A stretch of DNA of 64,000 bases. It comes from Bacteroidota bacterium (GTDB taxonomy: Bacteria; Bacteroidota; Bacteroidia; Bacteroidales; Paludibacteraceae). The stretch is taken from positions 27,253 to 91,252 of the forward strand of contig JAFNAV010000002.1 of NCBI GenBank assembly GCA_017860345.1, in the 5' to 3' direction. The translations under genes and the position numbers were made by a program. Shown here piece by piece: positions 1,284-46,898 of this stretch (within the stretch, counting starts at the first letter, position 1; the number at the start of each line of letters is the position of its first letter). The notes beneath the pieces are model-generated. The model searched no databases and was not told the DNA's origin. It worked only from the letters and a program-made list of their open reading frames with translations.

Positions 1284-2699
<1,416 letters not shown>

Positions 2700-2815
2700 T
2701 AAAAATGCCCGGGTTGCAGGTCAATAACTAACAACAAACAAATACTTGGCCTGCACCATCAACATAAATTAGGTTTTAGTTTTTTATTAGTTACGTTGTA
2801 TTTTCTTGTTTTTTC

Positions 2816-2867
2816 AGTTATTTATAGTTTTCTACCGATGCGAATCGTAGGGAAACTATAAATAACT
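2816..2867. repeat. Long hairpin with GCGA loop, copy 2 of the hairpin pair
   Basis: Two 24-base arms (2816-2839 and 2844-2867) pair through 15 perfect outer base pairs, a short imperfect zone and a CGAT/ATCG tip closed by a GCGA loop. It lies between the sulfhydrylase stop (2699) and the LuxR regulator (2946). No T run follows on the plus strand, so simple termination is unlikely. The tip matches copy 1 at 1137-1164. The rest of 2700-2945 shows no gene. Confidence 0.65.
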
Positions 2868-2945
2868 AAACTTTTACACATAGCGGTATTATATTTTTTT
2901 TAAGTAATAATATATTCCTTGTTCGCTTTTAAACAGTAACTCTTC

Positions 2946-3608
2946 ATGAATAAAAGTTCCTTTATTATTGCTGAAAGTAATATCTTATACAGTTTGGGGC
3001 TAAATGCCCTTATTCATGAGCGCATCCACAATGCTACCGTTATAAACGTTTCGGGCTTCGCCGAAATTAACAATGCTCTGTTATCAACTCCTGAGTCTGT
3101 CGTTATTGTTGATATGGATTCATTCAACAATAAACAGCTTGATTTTTTTTCGATGACTTCGTCAAAATTTACAGGAAGCAATTGGCTATTCATTTCCGAG
3201 ATTGCCCGCGAAGCGCAACTTATTGAACTTAACAGAGCAATTAACCACGCAAATTTTGTGCTTAAAACCAATGATTACGATGTTATATCCACAGCTATAG
3301 TAAATACGGCCAAAGGAATGAGGTATTTTTGTAGCGAAGCTTTACAAATTATCATGGAGGAGCATAACAGAAAAAAAACTACAGAGCCCAAAAAGCATGT
3401 GCTCACAGGCACTGAGCTGGAGCTTATTCAGCTATTTGCTATGGGTAAAACTGCCAAGGAGGTGGCCGTAATCCGCACGTCGAGTTATCACACCATCAAT
3501 ACCCATCGCAAGAATATCTTCCGAAAATTAGAGATTAACAACATTCAGGAACTTATCAAGTACGCTTTAAAGCATAATTTACTTGATTTGACCGAATATT
3601 ACATCTGA
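2946..3608 (+). CDS. LuxR/NarL-type response regulator
   Basis: This 220-residue protein has a receiver-like N-terminal half with a possible phospho-acceptor D56 (VVIVDMD). The usual acidic pair near the N-terminus is reduced to AES (E10). A LuxR-type helix-turn-helix fills the C-terminal third (about 150-215: LTGTELELIQLFAMGKTAKEV). It is a clear paralog of the regulator at 5418-6071: both share the layout, the TNTHRKNIFRK-like recognition region and the final EYYI. No histidine kinase lies nearby. Target genes are unknown. Confidence 0.85.
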   Translation: MNKSSFIIAESNILYSLGLNALIHERIHNATVINVSGFAEINNALLSTPESVVIVDMDSFNNKQLDFFSMTSSKFTGSNWLFISEIAREAQLIELNRAINHANFVLKTNDYDVISTAIVNTAKGMRYFCSEALQIIMEEHNRKKTTEPKKHVLTGTELELIQLFAMGKTAKEVAVIRTSSYHTINTHRKNIFRKLEINNIQELIKYALKHNLLDLTEYYI

Positions 3609-3621
3609 TTTAATCAGGTTC

Positions 3622-4146
3622 TCAGATCGAATACAATAAATCCAACCCTTGCTGCCAACTATAATGCCCCGATGCGGCATTAATATGTCCGGCTTGTCCG
3701 ATATTGATAAATTTACTACCCCACTTTTGAGCATAATATTCGGCAGTATTTATGGCAACCCACGGATCGTTGGTACTTGAAACCACAATGGTAGGAAAAT
3801 TTATTGGCGTTATAGGATTATGGTTGGTGAGGATATGCAGTTCCTTGCGAACAACATCTATATCAGGAGGCGCCACAAGAAGAGCCCCCTTAATTTTTTT
3901 ACGGTACCTGCGTGCCCATTCGGCCACCGTAAGGCAACCTAAGCTGTGAGCCGCAAGAACCACGCTATCGGGCTGATAAGCCGAAATCACCTCATCTATA
4001 TTTTCTACCCACTGGTCAATATCCGGCGAGTCCCAATTATGCTGTTCAATCCTTGTTATATGCTGTTGCGTTTTTTCAAACCAGGTCTGCCAATGTTCTG
4101 CACCAGAGCCTCCCAAGCCGGGCACTGTAAAATAATTAATCATCAT
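3622..4146 (-). CDS. RBBP9/YdeN-type serine alpha/beta hydrolase
   Basis: A small single-domain hydrolase (Pfam Ser_hydrolase, RBBP9-like). The nucleophile is in LAAHSLGC, the acid in SSTNDPW and the histidine in GQAGHINAASGH, the full triad of this family. The ORF track starts at 4209, but the family's N-terminus (INYFTVPGLGGSGAEHW) points to the ATG at 4146 or 4143, giving about 174 residues. The gene stands alone and converges with the LuxR gene at 3608. Substrate unknown. Confidence 0.85.
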   Translation of the reverse strand: MMINYFTVPGLGGSGAEHWQTWFEKTQQHITRIEQHNWDSPDIDQWVENIDEVISAYQPDSVVLAAHSLGCLTVAEWARRYRKKIKGALLVAPPDIDVVRKELHILTNHNPITPINFPTIVVSSTNDPWVAINTAEYYAQKWGSKFINIGQAGHINAASGHYSWQQGLDLLYSI

Positions 4147-4248
4147 TCTATACCTTTTTTCAAAAATTATTTGTACTGCAAATTTCGCAATTTCGGATGC
4201 GGTACACAATCACTGCGGCATGGTATTTTTGTACCGTGTTTATGGTAT

Positions 4249-4282
4249 AAAAAAAGCCGGAGCTAAAAGAACGCTCCGACTT
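4249..4282 (-). terminator. Intrinsic terminator of mnmA
   Basis: On the minus strand AAGTCGGAGC pairs with GCTCCGGCTT (one G-T pair) and is followed by a run of seven T. It lies 25 bases past the mnmA stop. Confidence 0.85.
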
Positions 4283-4306
4283 CTAAAACGAAATATCGTT
4301 AGATTA

Positions 4307-5368
4307 TTATTTTATCTCACCACTTCCTATACATATGCGCGAATCGGCATCGTATATCACCCCAAACTGTCCCGGGGCAATTCCCTGCAACCTTTCCTCC
4401 GAAACCAGATGATATCCTTTGTCAGTATTGAAAATCCTGCCACGTGTAAACTCCGGCGTATGACGTATTTTGAAAGTAACATCAGCGCCATTGGCAGCAT
4501 CTACCCATACATTATCTGTTATAAAATGGAAATCCTGCATGGTAAGCTCATAGCCATATTGAGCTTCTGCATCAAAGCCCTTGGATGCCCACACTATATT
4601 AGCATCTACATCCTTGCGAATTACGTACCACGGACCACCCGATAGCCCCAAACCTTTGCGCTGACCTACCGTATGAAACCAGTATCCTTTGTGCGTTCCT
4701 AATATTTTTCCGGTTTCCAACTCTACAATCGGACCTTCTTTTTCGCCCAGATAACGCCGGATAAAATCATTATAGTTCACCTTCCCCAAAAAACATATAC
4801 CCTGACTATCAGGACGTTTTGAGCTTGGAAGTTTTGCTTTCAACGCTATCTCGCGTACCTCGCTTTTCATCAGATGCCCAATAGGAAACATCAGTTTTGA
4901 TACCTGAAGATAATTAATCTGAGCCAAAAAGTCGGTTTGATCTTTTATAGGATCTTTGGCAGTCGACAAGTATGTTTTTCCATCTGCCTCCGTAGTAGTG
5001 GCGTAATGCCCGGTAGCCGTTTTATCAAACTCCTTCCCTACCCGCTGCTCAAATACACCAAATTTAATCAACTTATTGCACATCACATCAGGATTTGGGG
5101 TAAGCCCCTGCTTCACTTTCCTTATCGTATAATCCACCACATTGTCCCAATAATCCTTGTGCAAATCAACCACCTCAAGCTTACATCCATACTTATGGGC
5201 TATAAGCGTAGCCATCTCTATATCTTCTTCCGACGAACAATGCAGTAATTCATCATCGTCCATACCTATTTTGATATAAAACAAAGTAGGACGATAACCT
5301 GACTCGCAAAGCTGGTGAACCACTACCGAACTATCAACCCCGCCTGATAATAAAGCTGCAATATTCAT
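4307..5368 (-). CDS. mnmA: tRNA-specific 2-thiouridylase MnmA
   Basis: This enzyme activates U34 of Lys, Glu and Gln tRNAs with ATP and inserts sulfur to form 2-thiouridine. The PP-loop SGGVDSS lies at residues 8-14, the nucleophilic cysteine is C97 in [12 protein letters not shown], and the second catalytic cysteine is C192 in DSQGICFLG. At 353 residues it has the family length, with the central and C-terminal beta domains following. The sulfur probably comes from a cysteine desulfurase; sufS lies in this window at 47 kb, but the delivery route is not shown. The gene has its own terminator and sits between the two LuxR paralogs. Confidence 0.97.
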
Positions 5369-5417
5369 TTAATTCCTTAATACTGTATTATTTAAAAAAA
5401 ATCAATTGGCTAAAAAA

Positions 5418-6071
5418 TCAGATATAATATTCAGCCATATCCACTATTCCGGCCCTCATCGCATATTTTGTGGCCTCATGGATATTATTTACTTCTATTT
5501 TCCTGAAAATATTTTTTCTGTGCGTCATAATGGTATGAACGCTTACAAACCGCTTTGCAGCTATTTCCTTGGTAGTTTTACCCAGCGCCATTTCCTTCAG
5601 AATTTCCTGTTCGGTGCCGGTAAGCACCTGTTTGTGCTGATCATTGCTGGTTTTACGACTGCTATCCAGCAAAATATTGCTCACAAAATTACAAATATAC
5701 CGGTTGCCCTTGATGGCTTCCTTTAAGCCTGTAGTAATTTCATCAGCCGAGCAATCTTTCATCAACACACTTACCGAATGAGAATTAAACAACAGGGTTC
5801 TCAAAAACTCATCGCTGAGCTCATCCGAAAACAATATCCAGTCAGTTTTCTCAAAACGACTCTGAATAATGATTAATTCACCGGCACTCTCAAAATCGAA
5901 TAAAGTATAATCAACAATAACAACAGCCTCCTGTTCGTTTTTCAACACATCTATCATCTCAGCTTTACCGCTTACCAACGCAATCTGAAAATTCTCGCTG
6001 ATTTGGCGAAGCAAAAAAGTAAGTCCGCAGCGCGATATGTCCTGATTATCCGCAATAATTATTTTTCTCAT
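5418..6071 (-). CDS. LuxR/NarL-type response regulator
   Basis: A 217-residue paralog of the 2946-3608 protein. The receiver-like domain has D8 near the N-terminus (IIIADNQD), D54 as likely phospho-acceptor (VVIVDYT) and a lysine before the last helix (VLMKDCSADEI), as in NarL-type receivers. The LuxR helix-turn-helix follows (LTGTEQEILKEMALGKTTKEIA), and the protein ends in AEYYI. It lies directly downstream of the T9SS operon but behind a hairpin terminator and its own -7 box at 6120-6127. A role in T9SS control is possible by proximity only. Confidence 0.87.
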   Translation of the reverse strand: MRKIIIADNQDISRCGLTFLLRQISENFQIALVSGKAEMIDVLKNEQEAVVIVDYTLFDFESAGELIIIQSRFEKTDWILFSDELSDEFLRTLLFNSHSVSVLMKDCSADEITTGLKEAIKGNRYICNFVSNILLDSSRKTSNDQHKQVLTGTEQEILKEMALGKTTKEIAAKRFVSVHTIMTHRKNIFRKIEVNNIHEATKYAMRAGIVDMAEYYI

Positions 6072-40994: not shown

Positions 40995-43900
40995 TTAGTA
41001 CTTAGTTTTTTCTTTTACCACTCTTACTTTTTTCAGACTATTATTGGCATTAAAAGTAGGAAAGTACATCAACTCAACTTTAGCAGGATTTAATGTAAAT
41101 ATGCCATCAAAACGTGGAATCAGATTAATTTCGTAGGTATATTTTCCTTTTTGAAGTTTCTGAAAATAGATGTTGGTCATATTTTTATAGTATTCGCGAT
41201 ATTCATTCCATCTGTTTCCCTGATTTTTATTTTCGTAAGAAAAACCTGCCGGGACAGGAATGTTAAGCATCACATATTCAGCATCTTTCTTTAGCTCAAG
41301 ATTTACAATCAACTTTACTGGTTTACCTGCGTAAAAGCATAAATTACCCGAATTAAAACGGGTTTCTATAACAAAGTCCCCGGACTTGGGTTTGGGGTTC
41401 GCGTTCCATGCATGTTGATAAGCCGTTAGAAAAACAACACCCTGCCCCCTCTTTGTTATTGTAATTTTTTGGTCCGCATTAACTTTTAATGTATAGGGAA
41501 ACTCGGTAATTGTTTTATTTATATCTCCCAGAAACATGAGCGATGACTTACCCGGACTTGTTTTAATTTTTAAAATATCAGGTAAAATTGTTTCCAGTAT
41601 CTGAGCCGACTCGTAAGTATTCCACCAAGAATAGCTTTGTTTTGTTTCCATAAAAAATCGCCTTATTTTATTTAGTACTGAATCATTTTCTCCGGCATGT
41701 CGCAAAATTCGATAAACCGACAAAGTGTTCATAATATCATTGCTCATCAAACTATGGTTTTTGTTTTCTTCTCTGTAAAATGTGTTTCCAAATATTGTTT
41801 GCTGTTTATGTTTGGAGAGTAATGTTGTATCGTAAGGTATTTTACATGACTGACGTAACTCAATAAGCGATAACTGTATGTCAAACGATTTATGTTTAAC
41901 GGTATCAAGTTCATTGATATAAGTTTTATAATCAACGGCACAATTAAACATTTTGAGCATTTTAAGAATACAAACATCTTTGTCGATATTCTGATGTTTT
42001 CCAGACTCAAGTACAGAAACGTAATCCATAGCGAGGCGGGTGCTGTCAATATTGACCTTAAAGTTTTGTTGGCGTGCTTTACCAAGAGCCTGTAAGACAT
42101 GTAAACTAAACCTGTAATGTGTTTCCGTATCAGGCCACCAACCCCAAAAGCCATCAGATTTTCTGTTTTTAACCAACCGTTGTATCATACTTTCCACATC
42201 GCGATCGTACTTAAACTTTACGCCTTTGTATGCTGCAACGGCTCTTTCAGACAATAAGGCTATTAATTTAGACGCTATCTGTTCGTTGCAATCATATCTG
42301 TAACTTTTAAGCCGCTTGATTTCCGTTTCAAAAACATTAAGCACATCAGCATCAGCATAAATAGAAACCTCTCCTTGCGCATGATTAAACACAGGTGTTA
42401 TAGTACTATCACTATCAAGCATATAAAAGCTTCCGGTTGTTTCTTCCATTCCCGTTGGAAAAACAGGAATTTGTCGCTCTTCTCCGTCAAAATATCCGTC
42501 TTCTCTTTTAAGCATATATTTTAACCTGAGTGTATCCGAATGGGCAACTACATTTAAAGTGTCGATGTCAGAATTACGGCAATAGCGGCTTTTCTCATAC
42601 AATATGGCCCCATCTTGTTCAAACGAACTTTTTACTTTAGTGGAATCTGGCAAATAGTTGACCGTTTTACCAATTACCTTTACCGTGTCGCCCATCACCA
42701 AAAATGAGGGCACTGATAACTGAGCCATTAACGGTTTGTAGGATTTGATACTACTATTAGCCATACCTACCTGCCTCTTCCCATTCATTGCCAAAGCATA
42801 AGTATTCCATTTTGTAACATCATCGGGAAAGGTAACATCAAATCTGACTTTACCGTTTTTATCCGTTTTCAATCGTGGTTGCCAATACGCATAATCTGAG
42901 AAATTTGTTCGCAAATTACCGGCCTGCGTTGCAGCATCTACAAAAGACTGGTCGTAATCAGCTCCTTTATTATCTTTACTCAGAATACTTCGGTATGCAT
43001 TATCTTTGGTACTGATAACTACAACCCCATTGGCCGCCCTTGCCCCATAAATAGCTATAGCACTTTCATCTTTAATTACCTCGATGTTATTAATCATCGA
43101 CTGATCAAGAGCATCCGGGTTTCCAGTAAATACCATTCCATCAACAACATATAATGGTGTTGCATTTACAGAAATGGCCGAAACTCCTCTTACAATCAAG
43201 TTCTCAGAACTTTGAGAACCAACAACCCCTGAAACCTTTCCTGACAAAACAGAACTAATTGAACCTGTAAGAACTTGTTTTTTATAAGTGCCATACCCAA
43301 TCACCACCACTTCATTCAGATTAAGTTCACTTTCAGTTAATTCAATATTGTGGTTAGTTACTTCCCATATATTCATTTTAACCGGGTTGTATCCCACATA
43401 CGAAATTGTTACACTACTCCTGTTCTTAGGTACCTTTAAAGTAAAGTTGCCCTCCAGATTAGAAACAGTACCCAGATTTGTACCATCGACGGTTATCGAA
43501 GCTCCAATTACTGGTTCTTTAGTGGTAGCATCAACCACTTTCCCCGATATGATAGAACCTTCGCCGTTGTATATATTTTTTATCAAATATTGATTGTAAA
43601 TCTGATTTAACTCCGACTCCTTTACCGGCTCTCCATCCTTATCGAGAAACATGTACTGCTCAATCATATTACTTACAGTTTTGCCAAAATTATCATGGCT
43701 CAAAGACTCGGGTAAATTTGTTTTAATGTAAGTTATACCATCTCTTTTGGCATAAACAGAATCCACTAAACAATAAGACGAGCCCTGATAAAACAATATA
43801 ATCTGATAAAATCCCTCTTTGAGCTGATGAAACATATTAACCCGCCCGGGATAAACGCGAATAAATTTTTCATTATTCAAACCAATTATCAATGTATTAA

Positions 43901-46898
43901 GAGGTATCCTGTCCTTAAATTTATCTTCTACACTAAAAAATATTCTCGCATAACCTTCAATAGTTTTTGTAGGATAATTATATCGGTTACTCATTCTGCG
44001 CTTCAATTCAAGGCTTTGCATCATAAGCAACTCAGCATTCTTTTTTGTCAACACAGAATCTTCCAGATTTTTTTTTGCACCAAAATAAGCAAGCGGATTG
44101 TTAGTTGGTAACCACTCCGGTTTTACTTCCCGCATTTTTATTTTACTGCCTGAAAACTCATATTCAAAATAAGGCTCATGTAAAAAATCGTAAGAATACG
44201 TACCTATCATATTTACATTTACAAGACCCGAAACCGGCCCAGCGAGTTTTACTTTATCATAGTTGGAATTTAAGAGTTGTACATCATAGTCTTTCTCAAG
44301 CGTAACAAAGTTATCTTTAAAATTATCACGGTAGGGAAATATATACCTATTCAATACATTCTTCTCAATATCAGTAAGATTTACAGGCATTTTTTTAATA
44401 TCAATATTATTTTCCTTAACAGCCATAGAAATACTGAATACAGACTTGTATCCTTTTTCAAAAAAATAGTTGTCAATCGTTATAAGTTTATCTCTCAATC
44501 TTAGTTGAATTTGATGTTTTCCATCGTCTACCCTGAAAGCATAAGGTTGACTTACATTTGTCCAACTAAAATACACCGGTTTATTATCCACATAAATCAC
44601 GTGTACTGGCAGTATATCACCACGTTCGGATACTACAAATGGAGCGAATTGAGTGATTCCTTCAGCCTGCTTATAATCATACCTGTAAATGCTGTCGCCC
44701 GGATATAAGAACTTATAATACTCTATCGAATCGATTCCGGCAAGCGTTTTCCACGCTTCATAGTTCAAATAACGAAAATTTTCTGTAGTAGATAAGCTCT
44801 TTCCAATTGTAAAATTATTTATCACACTTTTTTCGGGTCTTGATTTACCTAAATAGGGCAAATCAGGTACACTATAATCAAACTTACTGGTAATAGAAAA
44901 TGCGGTTAAATCCACGCCCTCTACTGGTTTACCTCCAGGATCAGTTACTGTTATTTCTACGTTTGATTTCATACCGGGATAGATGAGCTTAGGCTGTTTA
45001 ACGTTCACATTCAACATTTTATCGGCTAATGGAATACGATATGTTGCCTCTTTTATTTCACCTCCCCACAAATATCTGATTGATGCATAATAATTCTGGC
45101 TTGATGAAACTGATTTGCGTAAAGATAACGACTTACCATAGCCCCTGAATTTTTCAGAATTGCCTTTGTAAATATTATAGGTAAAATTCAGTTTACGCGG
45201 GTTAGATGTTTCGATAAAAAGTGAATCTTTAGTACGAGTAGCAAAACATTGCAGTAATGACGACTGGTTATCTACTTCTAATGTTTGTATCATATCCCGA
45301 CCAACTGCTGTATACGACTTATAATAAACATTTAACGGCAAATTACAAGGTGTGGTAAAGTTTCCAATATCCGTTTTTATTCCAAAATTATCAGCAGCAA
45401 ATATTTTCACTGGTATACTTTTAGGCATTCCGTTTTCGGAATATCTTACTTGAACCGAATCATCTTTCAAGTTCATAAAGATGCTCTTAATTTCAGAATA
45501 ATAACTAATTACCTTGCTTTGAGAAAAGGTTTTGTTATCAGAAGTTAGCATACGAATCTGAAGCTTATAGGTTAGGTTCAGTTTTGGAAATATTGAGTCT
45601 GGAATTAATATCTCGGTTTCACCCACGGGCTTAAGTGGCTGATTACATGACCAGATGGTATCCGGAACAAATAACTTATCGGAAAGATACATTTCAACTT
45701 TATCAGTTAGTAGTTGTAATTCCATTCGGGCGTCCTGAACGTTAAGACCATTATCATCAACACCTTTAAGAAACACAGAAAATGGTTTCCCTCTGTATTG
45801 CGAACTTCCATCGGTTCTAAGCTCAAGTCGAACTGGATTCAGCTCATAATCTTCGTATCTAAAATTATTGGATATATAGTTTTCACCCTTTTTATTTTCT
45901 AAAAAAACGGTACAATATTTATCTAATTTAAGATTGAGTGAATCATGTAAATAAAAGCTATACTCGTACGCTCCCGGATAATATGGTTTAAGTTTATCCA
46001 ATGTAATATTTTTGGAATCGCAGAATAGCGTAAGTGAAACTTCTTTCTCCAAAGGGGTTCCTTTTTTGTTTACTAAATAAGCTTTTAGCCTGACTGTATC
46101 GCCGGGCATATATTTGGGCTTATTAAAAACCAAATATCCTTTGTAATCTAAATTCTGTCTGTAACTATAATCGCCATAAAAAAGATTTTCAATTTGATAG
46201 CCAACTCTTCTAAAGAACGATTTTGTACGCCATAACGAACCTGTTAAATGACCTTTGGATATTGACTTCACAGCATCTACAGGCAAATCTACCACAAACT
46301 TAACAGGACGCCACACATACTGTAAAGGCGTACCATAAAGCACCTTACGAGAATTACGAAGAAAAGCCGAATTATTATACTTTCGTTTTAAATCAAAATA
46401 GGCTGTATTACCCTGATAAGTAACTGATAAAAATCCTCTCAAATTAGATTTCCGATGCAAATAACATTGGGTTTGCGCATCAAATTTCAGGTTTCTACCA
46501 CCCACTTTCACTTTTGCATTATTTATGATTGTTCCTTGCAAATTGTAAATCTGAATGTAAAGGTCAGTATTATTATTCAATACCTGCACTTCAAAATTGG
46601 GAACAAAAACATAAAATATACGTTGCTTATTCTCAACCCCCGAAACTTGCAGATAATGTCCTGAACTAAGAATTCCTTTATATACACTATCGGTGGGATA
46701 TGAATCGACCAAGGTATGTAAAAACGTGGAATCCGCTTTCAAGAGTCCCTTCTTATTGATTATTTTTGCTTCCTTATCTGTAATTTTATAGACATAAGTC
46801 AAACAAGAAGTTTTTCGGCTTGTCAACAAATTTCCTGATAAAGCATAAATACTATTCATTAAAAATAATACAAGTAATAATCTAAAGAAGATTTTCAT
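40995..46898 (-). CDS. Alpha-2-macroglobulin-like protein with inserted SusC-type CarboxypepD_reg and TonB-plug domains
   Basis: This 1967-residue protein has a signal peptide (MKIFFRLLLVLFLMNSIYA, no lipobox). An MG2-type domain lies near 255-290 (KPKYMPGDTVRLKAYLVN), and the A2M core near 1336-1420 (YWQPRLKTDKNGKVRFDVTFP). The thioester-type motif CNEQ is at C1537-Q1540 (RYDCNEQIASKL), followed by a helical thioester-domain-like part. Between them lie a carboxypeptidase-regulatory beta-sandwich (about 1114-1195, GKVVDATTKEPVIGASI) and a SusC plug (about 1196-1298, NEVVVIGYG, LYVVDG, IEVIKDESAIAIYGARAANG). No TonB barrel follows. A periplasmic or surface protease-trap-like role is inferred. 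It looks more AT-rich than its neighbours. Confidence 0.88.
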   Translation of the reverse strand: MKIFFRLLLVLFLMNSIYALSGNLLTSRKTSCLTYVYKITDKEAKIINKKGLLKADSTFLHTLVDSYPTDSVYKGILSSGHYLQVSGVENKQRIFYVFVPNFEVQVLNNNTDLYIQIYNLQGTIINNAKVKVGGRNLKFDAQTQCYLHRKSNLRGFLSVTYQGNTAYFDLKRKYNNSAFLRNSRKVLYGTPLQYVWRPVKFVVDLPVDAVKSISKGHLTGSLWRTKSFFRRVGYQIENLFYGDYSYRQNLDYKGYLVFNKPKYMPGDTVRLKAYLVNKKGTPLEKEVSLTLFCDSKNITLDKLKPYYPGAYEYSFYLHDSLNLKLDKYCTVFLENKKGENYISNNFRYEDYELNPVRLELRTDGSSQYRGKPFSVFLKGVDDNGLNVQDARMELQLLTDKVEMYLSDKLFVPDTIWSCNQPLKPVGETEILIPDSIFPKLNLTYKLQIRMLTSDNKTFSQSKVISYYSEIKSIFMNLKDDSVQVRYSENGMPKSIPVKIFAADNFGIKTDIGNFTTPCNLPLNVYYKSYTAVGRDMIQTLEVDNQSSLLQCFATRTKDSLFIETSNPRKLNFTYNIYKGNSEKFRGYGKSLSLRKSVSSSQNYYASIRYLWGGEIKEATYRIPLADKMLNVNVKQPKLIYPGMKSNVEITVTDPGGKPVEGVDLTAFSITSKFDYSVPDLPYLGKSRPEKSVINNFTIGKSLSTTENFRYLNYEAWKTLAGIDSIEYYKFLYPGDSIYRYDYKQAEGITQFAPFVVSERGDILPVHVIYVDNKPVYFSWTNVSQPYAFRVDDGKHQIQLRLRDKLITIDNYFFEKGYKSVFSISMAVKENNIDIKKMPVNLTDIEKNVLNRYIFPYRDNFKDNFVTLEKDYDVQLLNSNYDKVKLAGPVSGLVNVNMIGTYSYDFLHEPYFEYEFSGSKIKMREVKPEWLPTNNPLAYFGAKKNLEDSVLTKKNAELLMMQSLELKRRMSNRYNYPTKTIEGYARIFFSVEDKFKDRIPLNTLIIGLNNEKFIRVYPGRVNMFHQLKEGFYQIILFYQGSSYCLVDSVYAKRDGITYIKTNLPESLSHDNFGKTVSNMIEQYMFLDKDGEPVKESELNQIYNQYLIKNIYNGEGSIISGKVVDATTKEPVIGASITVDGTNLGTVSNLEGNFTLKVPKNRSSVTISYVGYNPVKMNIWEVTNHNIELTESELNLNEVVVIGYGTYKKQVLTGSISSVLSGKVSGVVGSQSSENLIVRGVSAISVNATPLYVVDGMVFTGNPDALDQSMINNIEVIKDESAIAIYGARAANGVVVISTKDNAYRSILSKDNKGADYDQSFVDAATQAGNLRTNFSDYAYWQPRLKTDKNGKVRFDVTFPDDVTKWNTYALAMNGKRQVGMANSSIKSYKPLMAQLSVPSFLVMGDTVKVIGKTVNYLPDSTKVKSSFEQDGAILYEKSRYCRNSDIDTLNVVAHSDTLRLKYMLKREDGYFDGEERQIPVFPTGMEETTGSFYMLDSDSTITPVFNHAQGEVSIYADADVLNVFETEIKRLKSYRYDCNEQIASKLIALLSERAVAAYKGVKFKYDRDVESMIQRLVKNRKSDGFWGWWPDTETHYRFSLHVLQALGKARQQNFKVNIDSTRLAMDYVSVLESGKHQNIDKDVCILKMLKMFNCAVDYKTYINELDTVKHKSFDIQLSLIELRQSCKIPYDTTLLSKHKQQTIFGNTFYREENKNHSLMSNDIMNTLSVYRILRHAGENDSVLNKIRRFFMETKQSYSWWNTYESAQILETILPDILKIKTSPGKSSLMFLGDINKTITEFPYTLKVNADQKITITKRGQGVVFLTAYQHAWNANPKPKSGDFVIETRFNSGNLCFYAGKPVKLIVNLELKKDAEYVMLNIPVPAGFSYENKNQGNRWNEYREYYKNMTNIYFQKLQKGKYTYEINLIPRFDGIFTLNPAKVELMYFPTFNANNSLKKVRVVKEKTKY

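Follow-up and report, generated by a model that had tools for sequence, protein, structure and literature searches.

A macroglobulin-type protein of Bacteroidales with a SusC N-terminal module in an expanded bait slot

The window analyzed here is a 64,000-nucleotide stretch of a Bacteroidales draft genome; on its minus strand, at positions 40995..46898, lies a gene for a macroglobulin-type protein of 1967 amino acids that carries a SusC N-terminal module in what profile alignment identifies as the bait slot. The protein opens with a putative type I signal peptide (residues 1 to ~22; 46833..46898), a hydrophobic stretch with neither a cysteine nor a lipobox, which points to a periplasmic location. 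An MG2 domain (residues 253–318; 45945..46142) is indicated by a Pfam match that falls below the Pfam cut-off (E 2e-4) and by profile-profile alignment to canonical macroglobulins. Beyond the SusC module follow an A2M domain (PF00207, E 4e-18; residues 1337–1423, 42630..42890), a thioester-type helical domain placed by model and profile alignment (residues ~1519–1740; 41679..42344) with the motif CNEQ at C1537 (residues 1537–1540; 42279..42290), and a C-terminal bMG10 domain (E 4e-14; residues 1854–1947, 41058..41339). PF00207 and PF17973 are both above cut-off in this protein and are matched in eight of eight relatives. The fusion of a macroglobulin with a SusC N-terminus, as proposed in the original prediction, is thus borne out by Pfam and NCBIfam, which find macroglobulin domains on either side of the module. 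The nearest solved structures by sequence are SusC/RagA for residues 1112–1318, and alpha-2-macroglobulins for 1330–1433 and 1519–1620.

The module begins with the SusC NTE, a CarboxypepD_reg-like domain (residues 1117–1199; 43302..43550) recognized by Pfam (CarbopepD_reg_2, E 5e-21) and by fold, since the slot model superposes here on the SusC NTE crystal structure 9hfj with a target TM of 0.90; the fold search with the slot model was informative for the NTE only. Its C-terminal edge at residue 1199 overlaps a TonB box, LNEVVVIGYG (residues 1194–1203; 43290..43319), which matches the box of the SusC protein Bt1763, where the NTE (PF13715) is likewise followed by 82-DEVVVTG-88 (PMC7782687). 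Next comes a shortened plug (residues 1204–1300; 42999..43289), supported by TIGR04056 and a SusC profile and containing RG, PLYVVDG and YGARAANGVVVISTK, with YGARAANGV located at 1284. The TIGR04056 (SusC/RagA) match covers residues 1117–1299, which correspond to positions 3–205 of a profile of 981 (E 2e-49), and gives way to macroglobulin sequence; therefore NTE, TonB box and plug are all present and the 22-strand β-barrel is absent, as originally proposed. The same proposal described a full SusC-style N-terminal module: its constituents are there, but about 20 residues of the plug are deleted, and Pfam Plug (PF07715) is not called in the source copy, compared with calls in six of the eight relatives scanned.

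The position of the module was resolved by a profile-profile alignment of the fused subfamily against 20 canonical Bacteroidales macroglobulins (E 2e-52), which runs unbroken to VDLTAFSITSKF (residues 662–673) and becomes firm again from LRTNFSDYAYWQP (1329). The equivalents of these two segments border the bait slot in canonical proteins, and the canonical bait (~135 residues in the reference) falls opposite residues ~675–1328. In a profile of the C-terminal part, residue ~1329 aligns with residue 730 of human A2M, directly past the human bait region (690–728, UniProt numbering). These flanks and the A2M equivalence therefore place the SusC module in the bait slot (residues ~676–1328; 42915..44873), which divides the MG domain that carries the bait (MG6 in human A2M, MG8 in bacterial numbering), a split that rests on alignment rather than structure because the slot model is poor (pTM 0.28). 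The slot amounts to ~650 residues here versus ~110–150 in ordinary Bacteroidales macroglobulins, and the module forms its last third, at the C-terminal end. The original prediction had correctly set the module between macroglobulin parts but had overlooked both the bait slot and the retained TonB box. The remaining two thirds comprise at least two predicted β-rich domains of no known family (~726–850 and 984–1065; 43704..44723), seen as AlphaFold blocks with pLDDT mostly 60–86 within the weak overall model. Bacterial A2M carries a disordered bait region inside one of its MG domains; when this region is cut, the protein undergoes the conformational change that springs the trap (PMC4498604). In the fused protein, sequence varies most at the slot edges (11–13% mean identity versus 46% in MG7); this, together with the rapid change of the plug in the closest pair, is what would be expected of a bait.

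A model of residues 1305–1967 (mean pLDDT 74, built on an eight-sequence alignment) matches native E. coli A2M (4ziu; TM 0.61–0.63, E 7e-25) as well as A2ML1, CD109 and C3; the domain around CNEQ is helical in this model, and the motif aligns with the CLEQ of ECAM (YPYGCLEQ). The motif, as C[NMT]EQ, is retained in 31 of 31 relatives, whereas CxEQ is missing from the thioester domain in 14 of the 20 canonical Bacteroidales macroglobulins. Since loss of CxEQ is tolerated in the canonical relatives but was seen nowhere in the fused subfamily, the retention favours a working covalent trap.

The same domain order was found in at least seven relatives, from Bacteroidales, Saprospiraceae, Prolixibacteraceae and Chitinophagales, so that the expectation of related fusions holds within Bacteroidales, Saprospiraceae and other Bacteroidia; the arrangement is real and conserved, and apparently undescribed. 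The subfamily is present in about 20 of 295 sampled genomes of the order (7%, ~1 in 15) and is parted from ordinary macroglobulins by a wide gap (E < 1e-47 versus > 1e-12), the latter accounting for the weak matches in most other positive genomes of that sample. A phylum-wide sample contained it in six of 396 genomes. Within the genus of the source organism, full-length copies occur in only three of 24 genomes, with a fragment in a fourth, a patchiness which suggests that the gene is often lost or moved.

Among the 31 relatives, the state of the module, scored with a SusC profile built solely from SusC genes, is full in 19, partial in seven and undetectable in five; it is thus far from the absence in all relatives that would have spoken against the fusion. 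The five negative proteins still show a CarboxypepD-type β-domain in alignment, and every relative inspected by alignment has an NTE-like domain in this slot; no SusC module was detected in any of the 20 canonical macroglobulins. The full module state requires about six changes on the core tree, so the plug may have been eroded repeatedly, or gained repeatedly. It is eroded or undetectable in 12 of the 31, five of which (L108, L110, L119, L145, L146) keep the NTE and a box reading E[TV]VVVGYG. The TonB box is itself degenerate or lost in some 9–10 of the 31 (L009, L010, L105, L109, L111, L112, L114–117), and these keep the thioester motif. One of them, L111, bears an extra half-plug within its N-terminal portion (residues 236–290), besides a degenerate bait-slot module (1183–1381).

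Conservation of the TonB box across the subfamily is close to that in SusC itself (E, 88% versus 91%; Y, 88% versus 87%). Where the plug is present, its fold glycines and hydrophobic residues are retained, but of the polar positions that SusC conserves several have been lost, for example the D before IESI (89% in SusC, 12% here). In the closest pair of relatives, L007 and L008, the plug is 50% identical compared with 71–88% in other regions, and dS is raised as well as dN; the plug dN/dS of 0.27, obtained from the single measurable close pair, indicates purifying rather than diversifying selection. A donor search with the fast-evolving L008 plug returned the plug of its orthologue as the best match and no closer SusC, so recent replacement from SusC is unsupported and there is no sign that a decoy has been refreshed. 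A tree of the fused modules with 47 SusC modules was unresolved and did not reject a single origin (p-AU 0.08).

The gene is flanked by convergent MarC and hypothetical genes on one side and by a divergent aminotransferase–SufE pair on the other. It stands alone, as the original prediction stated: there is no pbpC nearby, and no neighbour is common to more than three of 22 loci, hence no linked tonB/exbBD. The source genome has a single BiPBP_C match, located on contig C42 some 3 kb from a different A2M; there a thioester macroglobulin (CIEQ; 1963–5499) and a PBP1C gene form a classical pair. A further copy, on C64 (L121), is a canonical Bacteroidales macroglobulin that lacks CxEQ; a TonB-box-like LEEVVTVS in its bait is a single case and was taken as chance. 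Three kinds of macroglobulin, fused, PBP1C-paired and thioesterless, therefore coexist in one genome. Plugs without a barrel also recur in unrelated Bacteroidota proteins. In the source genome (L172; C59:66500–70500), a 526-residue protein joins an M56 (BlaR1) peptidase and a TonB C-terminal domain to half a plug; in related genomes (L167, L170), a plug (296–379) is inserted inside the DUF4139 domain (219–594) of a DUF4140/DUF4139 protein. No paper on a plug combined with a macroglobulin, or with BlaR1/M56/DUF4139, was found in the open-licence literature, which is weak evidence of novelty.

The reading that we consider best, at a probability of roughly 0.4, is that of a periplasmic thioester macroglobulin trap whose bait is a SusC-type decoy in the ~650-residue slot. 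Its basis, supported by computation, is the domain content, the slot position, the thioester motif, their conservation and the repeated erosion of the plug; we infer thioester chemistry, protease capture, periplasmic location and a decoy role. The SusC module would act as an integrated decoy that mimics an outer-membrane importer as seen from the periplasm. With its TonB box exposed and its plug unhoused and probably labile, it would let any protease that attacks SusC/RagA systems spring the trap. A cut in the slot would release the thioester domain, whose CNEQ thioester would then capture the protease covalently in the manner of alpha-2-macroglobulin. The rapid change of the plug seems to favour such a bait; against it, the plug keeps its fold glycines and is under purifying selection, which goes beyond what a plain cleavage segment would call for.

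It is possible, though doubtful, that the slot serves TonB instead: a TonB C-terminal domain might bind the box and either hold the trap beside working SusC transporters or pull on the slot, freeing the thioester domain mechanically. The persistence of the box, at SusC-like conservation and with the NTE in the five relatives whose plug has eroded, would favour this version, as would the behaviour of the real transporter: TonB-box mutants of Bt1763 lose function and deletion of the box disables it, and the NTE, which plays an important part there, has been suggested to serve TonB choice or specificity (PMC7782687). It is weakened by the relatives that keep the thioester with a degenerate or lost box, and by the want of any linked tonB/exbBD. 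The evidence does not choose between decoy and TonB. The stronger form, a mechanically gated thioester protein with TonB on the box of the bait slot and a trap that can be sprung or positioned by proton-motive force instead of by proteolysis, appears improbable; if true, it would link outer-membrane transport to periplasmic covalent capture.

It is unlikely that the insert is a mobile NTE–plug piece that landed in a loop able to accommodate it and has persisted as a spacer with no role of its own. The recurrence of barrel-less plugs in unrelated proteins, the second half-plug of L111 and the several erosions of the plug are all compatible with such a piece, but the constancy of the NTE-like domain at one slot and the retention of box and fold residues over deep divergence are not readily explained by it.

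The original prediction had the plug docking in a partner barrel and so tethering the trap to the outer membrane, which now seems very improbable. The retained plug fold residues of most relatives and the missing lipid anchor are in its favour; however, a lipobox scan found no convincing lipoprotein signal in the fused subfamily or in its canonical relatives, so nothing has been replaced, and the idea that the module substitutes for a lipid anchor was dropped. If the plug filled a partner barrel, one would expect it to be complete and to keep its contact residues, and a barrel lacking a plug to be encoded; the analysis found none of these: the plug is shortened here and eroded in many relatives, polar positions conserved in SusC, which are candidates for barrel contact, have drifted, and no plugless SusC barrel occurs among up to the best 47 SusC matches per genome in the source genome and two near-complete genomes. 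Two candidates in the source genome (on C76 and C41) are genes at contig ends, and one in G188 is a gene split in two frames. The latter (C1:1031081–1034226) is divided exactly between plug and barrel (profile 1–201 and 202–981), by a frameshift or a real split. A TonB partner is still conceivable, because the TonB box is kept. Finally, an assembly or annotation artefact has a negligible chance, even in a draft genome that is 86% complete, since the identical domain order recurs across many independent assemblies, which rules out the assembly join.

If the module is a bait, as in the decoy reading, the trap would carry a piece of its guarded target and represent a bacterial counterpart of integrated-decoy immunity; if TonB engages it, the A2M/complement fold would have acquired a novel trigger. 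Either reading offers a handle on the barrel-less plugs that recur in Bacteroidota and on the role of the SusC NTE domain, and the function of the macroglobulin–SusC combination is now testable.

Among known systems, the closest are the bacterial type I A2Ms (ECAM/YfhM, SaA2M), which likewise have MG domains, a bait slot within an MG domain, a CxEQ domain and a C-terminal bMG10. Their bait is a short disordered segment, in contrast to a ~650-residue slot with a SusC module, and the fused protein differs further in having neither a lipobox nor a PBP1C neighbour; it has nothing that aligns with the first ~480 residues of the canonical bacterial proteins. With the SusC/RagA transporters of TIGR04056 it shares the order of NTE, TonB box and plug, but the barrel is absent, the module is internal rather than N-terminal, and the plug is shortened. 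Complement C3, C4 and C5 share the fold and hold a folded domain, the anaphylatoxin (C3a in C3), in the equivalent slot, with a thioester in C3 and C4; that domain is unrelated to the SusC module, and the analogy is one of position only. The M56–TonB_C–plug and DUF4140/DUF4139–plug proteins likewise place a plug without a barrel in a larger protein, although the hosts are different and the copies seen consist of the plug without an NTE. The fused protein belongs, as a variant, to the macroglobulin family and does not define another type of system.
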